A stretch of 64,000 nucleotides of DNA, from IMG/VR virus record IMGVR_UViG_3300028864_000014, positions 171,319 through 235,318 of that record; one strand, written 5' to 3'. The translations under genes and the position numbers were made by a program. The DNA comes from a virus. The number at the start of each line of letters is the position of its first letter. The stretch's first letter is position 1. The notes below the pieces were generated by a model. The model made no database searches. It saw nothing but the letters and a program-made list of their open reading frames with translations, and was not told the DNA's origin. This document shows, in pieces, positions 1,564 through 62,683 of this stretch.

Positions 1564-1815
1564 ATGGAAGCAATTTATAATACAAGCGATTATATTGAAA
1601 TGATATTTATGTTTGTGATGATGGTATTATTACTTATTGTTATTAAATATATACATGGAGACTATTCAGCAGAATCAATTGAAGAAATTAGTAAAGATGA
1701 ATTATCAATCACAAATGATAAAGGTGATGTAATAGGAAAAAAGTATATCAATACATATAAATACACATATAAAAATGGTAGTATTAAATATAAAACAAAA
1801 ACTATTAATTTATGA
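1564..1815 (+). CDS. single-pass membrane protein, 83 aa
   Basis: A hydrophobic helix spans about residues 12-30, followed by I-H-G-D-Y-S and a charged tail rich in Tyr, Thr and Lys. The tail should sit in the cytoplasm by the positive-inside rule. It is the first gene after a clear promoter and overlaps the next gene by four bases. Similar G-Y-S-x-E-S-I spacing after a membrane helix occurs in 6452-6646, so the two may be distant relatives. Function unknown. Confidence 0.75.
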   Translation: MEAIYNTSDYIEMIFMFVMMVLLLIVIKYIHGDYSAESIEEISKDELSITNDKGDVIGKKYINTYKYTYKNGSIKYKTKTINL

Positions 1816-2048
1816 TAACATCTCTAACCAATCTAACTAAATTGGATAATATTGCATATGAATTATATACTGATAATTATATTTCTAAAACATATGATCC
1901 TTTATCATTATTTTCGTTTCATTATATTTATTATAAGAAATGTAGTTGGGGAGGAACATCTTATGACGATGTTAAAAAAATTTATGATAACGCAAAAATT
2001 ACAATAAGAAAATTAAAATTAATTGAAATAGAAAATATTAAATTATGA
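1812..2048 (+). CDS. family A small protein with C-terminal RK-KL motif
   Basis: The protein has the family A motif D-N-I-A-Y-E-L-Y near residue 13, an aromatic centre and the tail A-K-I-T-I-R-K-L-K-L-I-E-I. The ATG overlaps the previous stop and its own stop overlaps the next ATG, so translation is probably coupled. It is a paralogue of the following gene (shared D-x-I-A-Y-x-L-Y and C-terminal helix). Predicted to be small, soluble and helical; function unknown. Confidence 0.78.
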   Translation: MITSLTNLTKLDNIAYELYTDNYISKTYDPLSLFSFHYIYYKKCSWGGTSYDDVKKIYDNAKITIRKLKLIEIENIKL

Positions 2049-2281
2049 TAACATCAAATAAATTAGACGATATTGCATATAAATTATATATGAATAGAAT
2101 TGATTTTGATTGCGTATATAATTCAATGAGTAAAAATGAATTTAAAAATATTCTTTATGATAAAAAATTTGACATTGATTATTATAACAGAGAAAGAACT
2201 GTTATAAAAAGTTTTTATTATAAAGCTAATATTATTTTAAGAAAAGAAAAACTTATAGAAATATCAAAAAATATAAAATGA
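2045..2281 (+). CDS. family A small protein with C-terminal RK-KL motif
   Basis: A paralogue of the upstream gene, with L-D-D-I-A-Y-K-L-Y at residues 7-15 and the tail Y-K-A-N-I-I-L-R-K-E-K-L-I-E-I. The same Y-x-K-A-x-x-I-L-R-K pattern recurs in 8301-8540 and 9009-9311 far away, so this is a dispersed family. It overlaps both neighbours by four bases. Confidence 0.78.
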   Translation: MITSNKLDDIAYKLYMNRIDFDCVYNSMSKNEFKNILYDKKFDIDYYNRERTVIKSFYYKANIILRKEKLIEISKNIK

Positions 2282-2526
2282 TATATCTTGATGATGTTAT
2301 ACATTATGTCAAACATAATAAAGTTCGTTTAGATATTGTATCTGATTATAAACATATTTATGATTATGATTTTCACATAGAAGAAAATACTGAAGTTTCA
2401 GTGTATTTACATTTAAATAAAAAACAATACGGCGGTGAAGTTTGTTATATTAAAATTATTAAAATTAAATTATCAGATATAATATCTCAAATAAGAAAAG
2501 AAAAACTCAAAAAAATAAAATCATGA
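2278..2526 (+). CDS. small protein with C-terminal RK-KL motif
   Basis: An 82-residue protein with no family A or B signature. A His/Tyr-rich N-terminal half leads into alternating hydrophobic strands (V-S-V-Y-L-H-L-N) and a helix ending Q-I-R-K-E-K-L-K-K-I. It shows that the RK-KL tail is attached to more than one kind of body. Overlaps both neighbours by four bases. Confidence 0.75.
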   Translation: MIYLDDVIHYVKHNKVRLDIVSDYKHIYDYDFHIEENTEVSVYLHLNKKQYGGEVCYIKIIKIKLSDIISQIRKEKLKKIKS

Positions 2527-2717
2527 CAATCTTTAAAGGAATAAAAATAAAAATATCAGAAACCACAAGTTATCCAACTCCTTATGGATATGAGTATAAC
2601 GCAAAGGGTTGTTATGTAAATAAAAAATTCTTAATTGTTGTTGGACATTTAGAACAAGACAACACAATAAGAATTAAATATCCAATGAAAGATATTATAA
2701 ATATAGAAATTATATAG
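2523..2717 (+). CDS. hypothetical protein, 64 aa
   Basis: A short, mostly beta-strand protein with G-Y-E-Y-N-A-K-G-C-Y-V centrally. It overlaps the preceding gene by four bases but lacks the RK-KL tail of its neighbours. The predicted fold is a small beta-barrel or sheet. Function unknown. Confidence 0.7.
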   Translation: MTIFKGIKIKISETTSYPTPYGYEYNAKGCYVNKKFLIVVGHLEQDNTIRIKYPMKDIINIEII

Positions 2718-2722
2718 TAATC

Positions 2723-2872
2723 ATGAAAACAAATAAGCAAAACACAGAAACCGTAAATGGTTTATCATTTAGACATGCTGCACAAATTGTCAGACGTAAA
2801 ATGATGACTAAGACTTATACCGAAAAAAATGAATACAACAGGAAAGATAAATCTTGGAAAAATTTACTTTAA
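2723..2872 (+). CDS. basic 49-aa hypothetical protein
   Basis: A complete ATG-to-TAA frame of 50 codons begins five bases after the previous stop. The product is strongly basic (F-R-H-A-A-Q-I-V-R-R-K-M-M) and hydrophilic, with a plausible central helix, so nucleic-acid or protein binding is possible. It is the last gene before a terminator. Confidence 0.6.
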   Translation: MKTNKQNTETVNGLSFRHAAQIVRRKMMTKTYTEKNEYNRKDKSWKNLL

Positions 2873-2890
2873 TAAATTGTAAAAAAAGTT

Positions 2891-2930
2891 AAATAGCTGA
2901 TTTATTTATATATAAATCAGCTATTTTTAT
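2891..2930 (+). terminator. long hairpin terminator
   Basis: AAATAGCTGATTTA pairs with TAAATCAGCTATTT (about 2891-2926), followed by T-rich sequence. It ends the operon, and the next promoter's TAnnTTTG begins directly after it. Confidence 0.85.
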
Positions 2931-2938
2931 TACCTTTG
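2931..2938 (+). promoter_or_regulatory. Bacteroidota-type -7 element
   Basis: TACCTTTG fits TAnnTTTG and sits about 28 bases before the ATG at 2966. A TTG inside this element is in frame with the next gene, but it cannot be the start codon if this is the promoter. Confidence 0.7.
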
Positions 2939-2965
2939 CACTTGATAATTAAACATTCAAATATT

Positions 2966-61102: not shown

Positions 61103-61118
61103 CTTATATTTGAAGAAC

Positions 61119-61198
61119 AGCCTAATCAATTAGAGACGCGTTCCCCAAAAGTCATCAATTACACTCAAGCCTAATCAATTAGAGACGCGTTCCCCAAA
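61119..61198. repeat. 31-bp direct repeat pair
   Basis: Identical 31-base copies at 61119-61149 and 61168-61198, separated by 18 bases. Each contains the near-palindrome CTAATCAATTAG and GACGCGTTCCCC. They are G+C-richer than their surroundings. They lie in the leader between a 27-residue gene and a fibre gene, so a regulatory or RNA role is plausible. The rest of 61199-61307 shows nothing clear. Confidence 0.85.
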
Positions 61199-61307
61199 CT
61201 ACCAACTCTGAACACTTGAAATAACCTCACCTTATGACTAACACAACACGCAAAATAAACCCACCATGAAATATATGATGAGCAACTTCAATAGCTTAAA
61301 AATGTTT

Positions 61308-61391
61308 TTAACCTACTACAATAGGATCATCTCCAGGTGAAGTTCCCTTAAATGCCTTAGTAGTCGTACTGGTTGTGATAATGTCTTCCAT
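61308..61391 (-). CDS. 27-aa protein at the head of the fibre operon
   Basis: A complete ATG-to-TAA frame encodes 27 residues (M-E-D-I-I-T-T-S-T-T-T-K-A-F-K-G and P-G-D-D-P-I-V-V-G). It has a late-type element in the usual place upstream, which supports it as a real gene. Possibly a leader peptide or small virion protein. Confidence 0.55.
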   Translation of the reverse strand: MEDIITTSTTTKAFKGTSPGDDPIVVG

Positions 61392-61401
61392 ATTACTTTT
61401 C

Positions 61402-61418
61402 TTCTATATATAAAAAAA
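61402..61418 (-). promoter_or_regulatory. putative late promoter element (27-aa gene)
   Basis: Minus-strand TTTTTATATATAGAAGA, about 12 bases before the ATG at 61391. Confidence 0.6.
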
Positions 61419-61464
61419 CCTTCTATTATACTTCAGATAATTTTTTTATTCCAAAATTTTTTAT

Positions 61465-61472
61465 TACCTTTA
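61465..61472 (+). promoter_or_regulatory. weak -7 element before 61491
   Basis: TACCTTTA, one base off TAnnTTTG, lies 19 bases before the ATG. It diverges from the minus-strand late element at 61402. Confidence 0.5.
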
Positions 61473-61490
61473 TAACTTAAATATAATTGT

Positions 61491-62147
61491 ATGAACAACG
61501 AAGAACTTGCAGACTGGCTTCTTAATAAAATATTTTCCTGCTACCCAGTTAAAATGTTAGAAAACGATAACATTACCTTCTGGTACTATGATAAAATATT
61601 TCATAGAAAACTTAAACTGTCTAAACTAAATAATACTAAAATTGAATATCCTAAAAATATTACTGGTATATGTATATTCGAACAAGATATAAAAAATAAA
61701 CAACTATGCTTCAACTACGACGAAATATGGAAAATTCTATTCGATAACTATTCTGACGATATAGACGATATTAATTTCCTTATTATGAATACACTAAAAG
61801 ATTCAGAATTTAAGTCATATACACCAGTTGAAAGTATGAACATTGAAACTCAATTTCAAAAATATGGACTAAAAATACCAGATAATGTAAATCAGTTTAA
61901 ATATAAACATAAACATAAACATAATTTGATATCTAAAAAACAACTAAAATCAAAACTAAAATCAAAACTTAAATTTAAAATTAAAATACCTAAAATAAGT
62001 AACGCTGATTTTAAAAACCTATGCATTAAATATAATACTAATATTAATATTATGTCATCTTTTATAACTAATAATAAAAAAATTAGAATATTTGATAAAG
62101 TAGGACTAATAATAAATACTAACGCATATATTCCAAAATCTAAATGA
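61491..62147 (+). CDS. family D protein with long basic C-terminus
   Basis: [21 protein letters not shown] and [14 protein letters not shown], then C-I-F-E-Q-D. Residues about 135-160 are extremely basic (K-Y-K-H-K-H-K-H-N and repeated L-K-S-K). Longest family D member at 218 residues. Overlaps the next gene by four bases. Confidence 0.83.
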
Positions 62148-62683
62148 CAAACGACGAATTATCTAAATGGTTCTGGAATAAACTGAACTCATGCTACCCT
62201 GTTATTCATAAAGACTACCCAAATAGTATATACTACTTCTACGACGAAAAATTTATTAGAAAAATTAAACTGTGTAAAATAAATAATACAATTGTAACAT
62301 TACCTGATAAAGTTACTGGTATATGCCTATTCGAACAAGATAATAAATATAAAGACCTTCTATGCGATTATACTGAAATATGGTCATTTCTAGGAAATAA
62401 TTATACGAAAAATTACGATGATATACAAACACTTATATCAAATATACTGAACGATAATATATGTTTAGAAAAATATAAACCTAGTACTTGCAGACTGTGG
62501 AATATGAACCTATTTGAACATAATAAACTGAAAATTTATTCAGCAAAAGTAGCAAGCTCAGGTTCATTTAATATTAAATTAACAGATCATACTAAACTAA
62601 ATGCGTATCTACCAATAGAAGAACATTTCAAATATACAGGAAGACTAAAAGATATTACTAAACTATCTGTTTATATAAAATAA
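62144..62683 (+). CDS. family D protein, distal copy
   Basis: [24 protein letters not shown] and [14 protein letters not shown], then C-L-F-E-Q-D and L-L-C-D-Y. The tail contains two copies of a D-x-T-K-L-x-x-Y unit. Codon choice is somewhat richer in C than in the main array (for example TAC and GAC), as in the previous gene. Last gene before the repeat region. Confidence 0.84.

Follow-up and report, generated by a model that had tools for sequence, protein, structure and literature searches.

In the 64,000-nucleotide stretch of virus DNA analysed here (the window; bases 171319-235318 in a virus record of 235,318 bases with 24% GC, designated G000), one short basic motif, RKxKL, stands near the C-terminus of many small proteins and also lies inside the members of another family, designated family D. 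This motif is under selection at the protein level and is restricted to one clade of huge phages. We consider it just probable that the RKxKL tag is an add-on docking or address helix, which is read by one specific receptor. Open reading frames (ORFs) were predicted in G000, in G001-G005, which are five related contigs, and in LR756500, a tagless relative of 462 kb with 24% GC, and the motif was counted with the pattern R[KR]xK[LI]xx[LI]. The ORFs were called mechanically after the sequences had been cut into 20-kb stretches, so that certain counts deviate by a small number. The compared contigs are possibly incomplete, the related contigs derive from few metagenomes, and paralogues are non-independent observations.

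The 413 predicted proteins of G000 contained 81 copies of the motif, as compared with a mean of 0.87 and a maximum of 3 in 200 per-protein shuffles. Sixty-two of these copies were near the C-terminus, and most of the others were at one fixed place in family D. The observed count and the shuffled mean were 95 and 1.2 in G001, 36 and 0.7 in G002, 11 and 0.25 in G003, 26 and 0.18 in G004, and 14 and 0.06 in G005. LR756500, which has an equal base composition, showed 2 matches against 2.2 expected, a chance level. Copies located about 22 residues or less from the C-terminus numbered 62, 91, 31, 9 and 16 in G000 to G004, respectively, and G005 had internal copies only; when only the last 30 residues were shuffled, the mean number of C-terminal matches was 0.26. 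A search with the corresponding DNA pattern, read forward and, as a control, backward, gave 59 and 1 matches in G000, 68 and 3 in G001, 26 and 1 in G002, and 32 and 0 in the sister contig G007. In nine further huge or related phages, a Lak phage and a Flavobacterium phage among them, the counts were about those of the control, with a highest value of 11 against 5 in 635 kb. From the shuffles, the backward DNA control and the chance-level counts in the tagless relatives, we rejected the explanation of the motif as a chance product of A-rich DNA. The original prediction, made from the letters of the window, had named matches no more frequent than in shuffled proteomes as an outcome that would speak against it, which the excess in G000 contradicts, and had proposed a scan of the complete genome and related phages, which located the motif across the record and in the related contigs.

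In the tag, position 0 is R and position +3 is K, both fixed by the search pattern in this tally; position +1 is K in about 95% of copies, positions +4 and +7 are L or I, and position +8 is often N. In alignments recruited by family, which partly avoid the circularity, position 0 was R in 117 of 119 sequences and position +3 was K in all 119. Orthologues were also collected blind to the tag, by removing the last 22 residues from every protein before the search. Of 43 such pairs whose G000 member is tagged, 41 kept R0 and 42 kept K3, as compared with 47% and 57% for the other R and K residues of the same proteins. The ratio of nonsynonymous to synonymous substitution rates (omega, dN/dS) was 0.24 over the five core codons, 0.53 over the rest of the tag and 0.59 over the bodies. 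Orthologues inside the tagged group were nearly always concordant on the presence of the tag. These results bear out the selection at the protein level that had been claimed from the window, and the value over the core is far from the dN/dS near 1 that would have spoken against it.

An A-rich ribosome-binding region for the next gene would make the tag a DNA-level by-product, and the gene spacing is consistent with such a role: the next gene was 15 nt away or less for 87% of the tagged genes of G000, as compared with 46% of the others. Because of this close spacing, the reading frame of the motif is an important test. At gene ends, the DNA pattern occurred in frame and out of frame at ratios of 55 to 5 in G000 and 77 to 1 in G001, and codon usage inside the tags was nearly genomic, with small shifts for R and I in G000 that were absent from G001. 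A ribosome-binding or other DNA-level signal was excluded by these two observations; the internal copies in family D and the low omega also stand against a by-product, and we regard its probability as negligible. Upstream of tagged genes, certain 7-mers are enriched; these seem to be the final part of a tagged gene lying just before.

After removal of the tag, 228 non-redundant proteins from the six contigs fell into 77 clusters, which were unlinked by pairwise or profile comparison. The dominant clusters were an SH3-like family (84 members) and the DDIAYxLY family (35 members), and the remainder were small or single. One tagged protein is a ResIII-like P-loop protein, and another was weakly recognised as a zinc ribbon. 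A tagged 172-amino-acid protein has homologues in LR756500, LR756511 and LR756508, and none of the three carries the tag. Family D is represented by 18 genes in the window and is present in every one of G001-G005. In Pfam and PHROG, family D and the tagged proteins mostly had no match or a weak one, the exceptions being the ResIII-like ATPase and phrog_4927, which weakly matched seven SH3-like members. For family D, no PDB match was obtained by profile, fold comparison gave no convincing structural relative, and no relative was detected in the 84,980 bacterial and archaeal species genomes scanned or in the annotated phage collection. The description of the motif-bearing genes as otherwise unrelated therefore holds across the contigs, with their 77 clusters, but not in the window, where most belong to four families (SH3-like, DDIAYxLY, IEKFLRNKKL and D). 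The attachment of one motif to many folds, also claimed from the window, is borne out by the 77 clusters and by the different predicted or recognisable folds.

The motif is predicted to form a helix in both the C-terminal and the internal context. In the AlphaFold model of a family D protein (62144-62683), whose domain was confidently predicted, the motif helix spans residues 35-46 after a strand and an N-capping Asp; in that of a tagged SH3-like protein (19652-19888), it spans residues 64-76. The fold matches of the latter were SH3, Tudor and KOW-like domains, with E-values from about 0.1 upwards in every case. Projected on a helical wheel, R0, K3, L4 and L7 lie on one common face together with the hydrophobic positions -1 and -4. 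The C-terminal tag is located 9-21 residues from the protein end, with variable residues after it, and its net charge is about +3.6 over 13 residues. Over the same 13-residue stretch, the hydrophobic moment was 0.25 for the tags and 0.31 for shuffled tags. A classical amphipathic or membrane helix was rejected from this value, and the low moment argues against lipid binding and favours a specific mixed face that a protein would recognise.

A second label was found in the same phages. The N-terminal leader MK[YH][IL]Kx[FY]E (strict pattern) occurred in 29 proteins of G000 and 56 of G001, and no protein had both this strict leader and the RKxKL tag (Fisher p = 0.013 and 5.5e-6). The leader proteins commonly end exactly in K[FY]N[ILM]. 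Such ends were counted in 42 proteins of G000, 34 of them with a broad leader (p = 3e-18), and in 63 of G001, 49 of them with a broad leader (p = 2e-23); in LR756500, leaders were present and the number of these ends was zero. The KFN end and the RKxKL tag occurred on the same protein in no case in G000 and in one case in G001. The two classes prefer opposite strands (p = 4e-10 and 2e-9), and SH3-like GDxV proteins were found with either label. Leader/KFN proteins are numerous in L007, L012, L050 and L053-L056, and three lie in the window on the minus strand (27753-28692; genes 27753-28085, 28082-28408 and 28405-28692), where the leader and a C-terminal KFNI are attached to GDYV-type domains. 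The leader resembles, we presume, the capsid-targeting sequence (CTS) of phage T4. The T4 CTS packages nearly any attached protein (PMC7697877), and by analogy the leader plus KFN[IL] label probably marks the prohead.

We infer a receptor for the RKxKL tag because R0 and K3 are near-invariant, the tag behaves as a modular add-on, and the second label is nearly excluded from the tagged proteins. In this mechanism, about 60-90 small, mostly array-encoded proteins per larger contig would end in a helix of the form N-cap-x4-R-K-x-K-L-x-K-[LI]-N, and family D would present the same strand-helix element within its fold. R0, K3, L4 and L7 would be read by a single specific receptor, most probably a phage protein, which would gather the functionally varied tagged proteins at one site or complex, the presumed common destination. 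The leader MKYxKxFE with the C-terminal KFN[IL] would serve as a separate label for other proteins. More tentatively, we suggest that these huge phages may sort about one third of their predicted proteins in the infected cell by two nearly exclusive terminal labels, of which the RKxKLxKLN helix would have its own receptor, and that new genes may join a destination by gaining a label, as proteins do in eukaryotic cells.

Several points weigh against a receptor-read address. A search for the receptor by common gene content yielded no candidate, and the main tagged contigs have too few genes in common for this approach. Half of the tagged proteins fall into just two clusters, the largest ones, and part of the conservation therefore reflects shared descent. 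The tagged genes are tightly packed, so that the tag correlates with operon position. Finally, the broad leader pattern matches 9 and 12 tagged proteins, and therefore the exclusivity of the two labels is based on the strict leader together with the KFN end.

The most plausible of the other explanations, although itself improbable, is a degron, by which the tag would hand phage proteins to an AAA+ protease, for example one using the phage's own ClpC-like ATPase, so that the class would be removed at one infection stage. A ClpC-like ATPase is indeed encoded by the phage, with 86% identity in the sister contig G007, and a short terminal motif on many small proteins has a degron-like appearance. 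However, the tag does not stand at the very end of the protein and is followed by variable residues, the motif of family D is internal and folded, and the ClpC gene was not found in the tagged contigs G001, G002 and G004, which are possibly fragments. Slightly less probable still is a second packaging signal, which would take proteins into the virion by another route for ejection into the host. Ejection of numerous head proteins is known from large phages (PMC5694885), and in T4 a short tag serves this end (PMC7697877), but the T4-like leader class is already present in the same phages and excludes the tag, the two classes prefer opposite strands, and the tag is not N-terminal. A charge-based tether to nucleic acid, ribosome or membrane would be in keeping with the net charge of the tag; we judge it unlikely, as R0 is almost never K, K3 is never R, and the hydrophobic moment, lower than in shuffled tags, speaks against binding to lipid. 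Targeting to the nucleoid, which the original prediction had suggested, is less likely for similar reasons, R and K not being interchangeable and the moment not exceeding that of shuffled tags.

That the tag is merely the best-conserved segment of a single, highly divergent domain, common to one superfamily, agrees with the presence of 119 of the 228 bodies in two large clusters. The SH3-like proteins, family D and the larger proteins differ in predicted or recognisable fold, though, the bodies form 77 clusters, and one family has tagless outside homologues, which makes a single superfamily very unlikely. About as improbable, and in our estimate marginally more so, is the import of tagged proteins into a phage nucleus or a compartment of that kind, with the tag as the signal. 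A study of huge phages reported both nucleus proteins and homologues of tubulin (PMC7162821), but neither a tubulin nor an RNA polymerase (RNAP) beta subunit was found in the five records searched, possibly fragments, the known import pathway recognises a surface and no signal sequence was found for it (PMC11087766), and the DnaB-like helicase and UvsX, as identified by family scan, are without the tag.

Sliding-clamp boxes, which are hub-binding motifs, and ssrA-type degrons also place one short near-terminal motif on many unrelated proteins that share one hub reader; we take the RKxKL sequence to be unlike both. The T4 CTS, too, is a short terminal peptide that several unrelated proteins of a single phage have in common and that can carry attached proteins to one destination (PMC7697877), but it is N-terminal, about 10 residues long and cleaved in the prohead, whereas the RKxKL tag is C-terminal or internal (the internal copies mostly in family D), occurs on 60-90 proteins, and never shares a protein with the CTS-like strict leader. 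The encapsulation peptides of bacterial microcompartments are short terminal helices that gather varied cargo at one structure (PMC12339742); they are amphipathic, with about 18 residues and a hydrophobic face, while the RKxKL helix, itself predicted, has a moment not above that of shuffled tags. No shell protein came up either, although no search was aimed at one. The tag is thus not a T4 CTS, being at the wrong end, and not an encapsulation peptide, having no hydrophobic face. Import into the phage nucleus by PicA/Imp1 is comparable in that phage proteins are sorted selectively within the infected cell, but recognition there is by a surface and no conserved signal sequence was found (PMC11087766), in contrast to the plain sequence tag here; the Chimalliviridae hallmarks PhuZ tubulin and multisubunit RNAP were not found in the five records, which are possibly fragments. 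The tag was not described in the open-licence papers searched, nor matched in the Pfam and PHROG scans, in agreement with the remark in the original prediction that no such phage system was known. We regard the tag as a putative phage labelling scheme of a new kind. If the address helix is real, this short tag, which is modular, nearly invariant and borne by dozens of proteins of one phage, would constitute a readable address code in a phage, unlike import into the phage nucleus with its lack of a known signal sequence. A large share of the function-less megaphage genes would then be grouped in one system, there would be a hint at how such genes are recruited, and the tag could serve as a bait for the receptor.

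Judged from its genes for UvsX, a DnaB-like helicase, ribonucleotide reductase, a tail sheath and the ClpC-like ATPase, the source of G000 is a T4-like phage with a contractile tail. The nearest relative of the tail sheath is that of the 735-kb uncultured phage LR756501 (50% identity). The largest huge-phage genomes were placed in the Mahaphage clade, and Bacteroidetes hosts were predicted for huge phages of more than 634 kb (PMC7162821). Because of this sheath relationship and these placements, the 235-kb record is likely to be a fragment of a longer genome. G000 and G001/G002 have very few common orthologues beyond the labelled families and family D; these main tagged contigs may represent different parts of megaphage genomes, not two complete phages.

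In the window, 30 predicted genes matched a loose pattern within 26 residues of the C-terminus, and 28 of them look genuine, the chance-like matches being genes 6452-6646 and 17408-17578. One more copy is in gene 21253-21390 and a degenerate one (IKQKI) in gene 20889-21137. These numbers, together with the 18 family D genes, are close to the approximately 33 tiny genes and 18 family D genes of the original prediction. The C-terminally tagged genes listed here are all on the plus strand. An array of three (1812-2526) consists of genes 1812-2048 (IRKLKLIEIE at 2004-2033), 2045-2281 (LRKEKLIEIS at 2237-2266) and 2278-2526 (IRKEKLKKIK at 2491-2520). Single tagged genes follow at 5293-5754 (NRRRKLKNIN at 5686-5715, kept in the G004 orthologue) and 6673-6942 (QRKTKLENLN at 6901-6930), and a tagged SH3-like gene at 7213-7458 (VRKYKLEKIN at 7408-7437). 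They are followed by three genes of the IEKFLRNKKL type (7442-8045; tags at 7589-7618, 7801-7830 and 8007-8036), five of the DDIAYxLY family (8038-9311; 8263-8292, 8496-8525, 8731-8760, 8978-9007 and 9273-9302), three SH3-like genes (9304-10004; 9514-9543, 9731-9760 and 9966-9995) and gene 9994-10185, whose tag LRKKKLEYIK (10132-10161) is kept in the G004 and G007 orthologues. Two small tagged genes (18566-18818; 18656-18685 and 18768-18797) precede an array of eight SH3-like genes (18799-20604; 18955-18984, 19140-19169, 19379-19408, 19618-19647, 19850-19879, 20088-20117, 20327-20356 and 20557-20586). The degenerate copy in the DDIAYxLY-like gene 20889-21137 is LIKQKIETLN (21099-21128), and the tag of the small gene 21253-21390 is DRKEKLNKLN (21349-21378).

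In the 18 family D genes, the motif is at about residue 38, directly after W-x-YDE, as had been predicted. Thirteen form an array on the plus strand (45493-51091), with motifs at 45595-45624, 45965-45994, 46378-46407, 46781-46810, 47183-47212, 47686-47715, 48101-48130, 48501-48530, 48946-48975, 49427-49456, 49824-49853, 50287-50316 and 50738-50767. The others are 5942-6439 (+; motif at 6053-6082), 26153-26584 (-; 26444-26473), 44839-45291 (-; 45151-45180), 61491-62147 (+; 61602-61631) and 62144-62683 (+; 62255-62284), the last being the member with a predicted structure. Family D members of sister contigs (L028:10001-10654, L029:10001-10678 and L030:10001-10540) have C-terminal tandem repeats of about 20 residues of the LKETxKxSVLTP type, which are reduced to traces in the window members. 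Beside the array, two small minus-strand genes encode proteins with the motif in the middle: 44240-44458 (LRNKKLENCL at 44348-44377) and 43975-44235, in which IRRRKLEEIN comes after DVKDLEQY and is followed by the strongly acidic tail DEPCDEFDFDDDESF. The latter protein is possibly a mimic or regulator of tag binding.

Proteins beginning with MKIRxGFVSNSSSSSFI were found at L028:15824-17147 and L054:15202-15600, and some of them also have the RKxKL tag; this N-terminal stretch presumably occurs in unrelated phage and bacterial proteins as well. Long minus-strand proteins with related ends are encoded in the window at 24174-26066, 40812-43469, 51125-52870 and 55407-61074, one with collagen-like repeats matching tail fibre families and one with a carbohydrate-binding module, and a Fib_succ_major domain (34763-38770) lies near them. 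These long proteins are probable host-recognition fibres.

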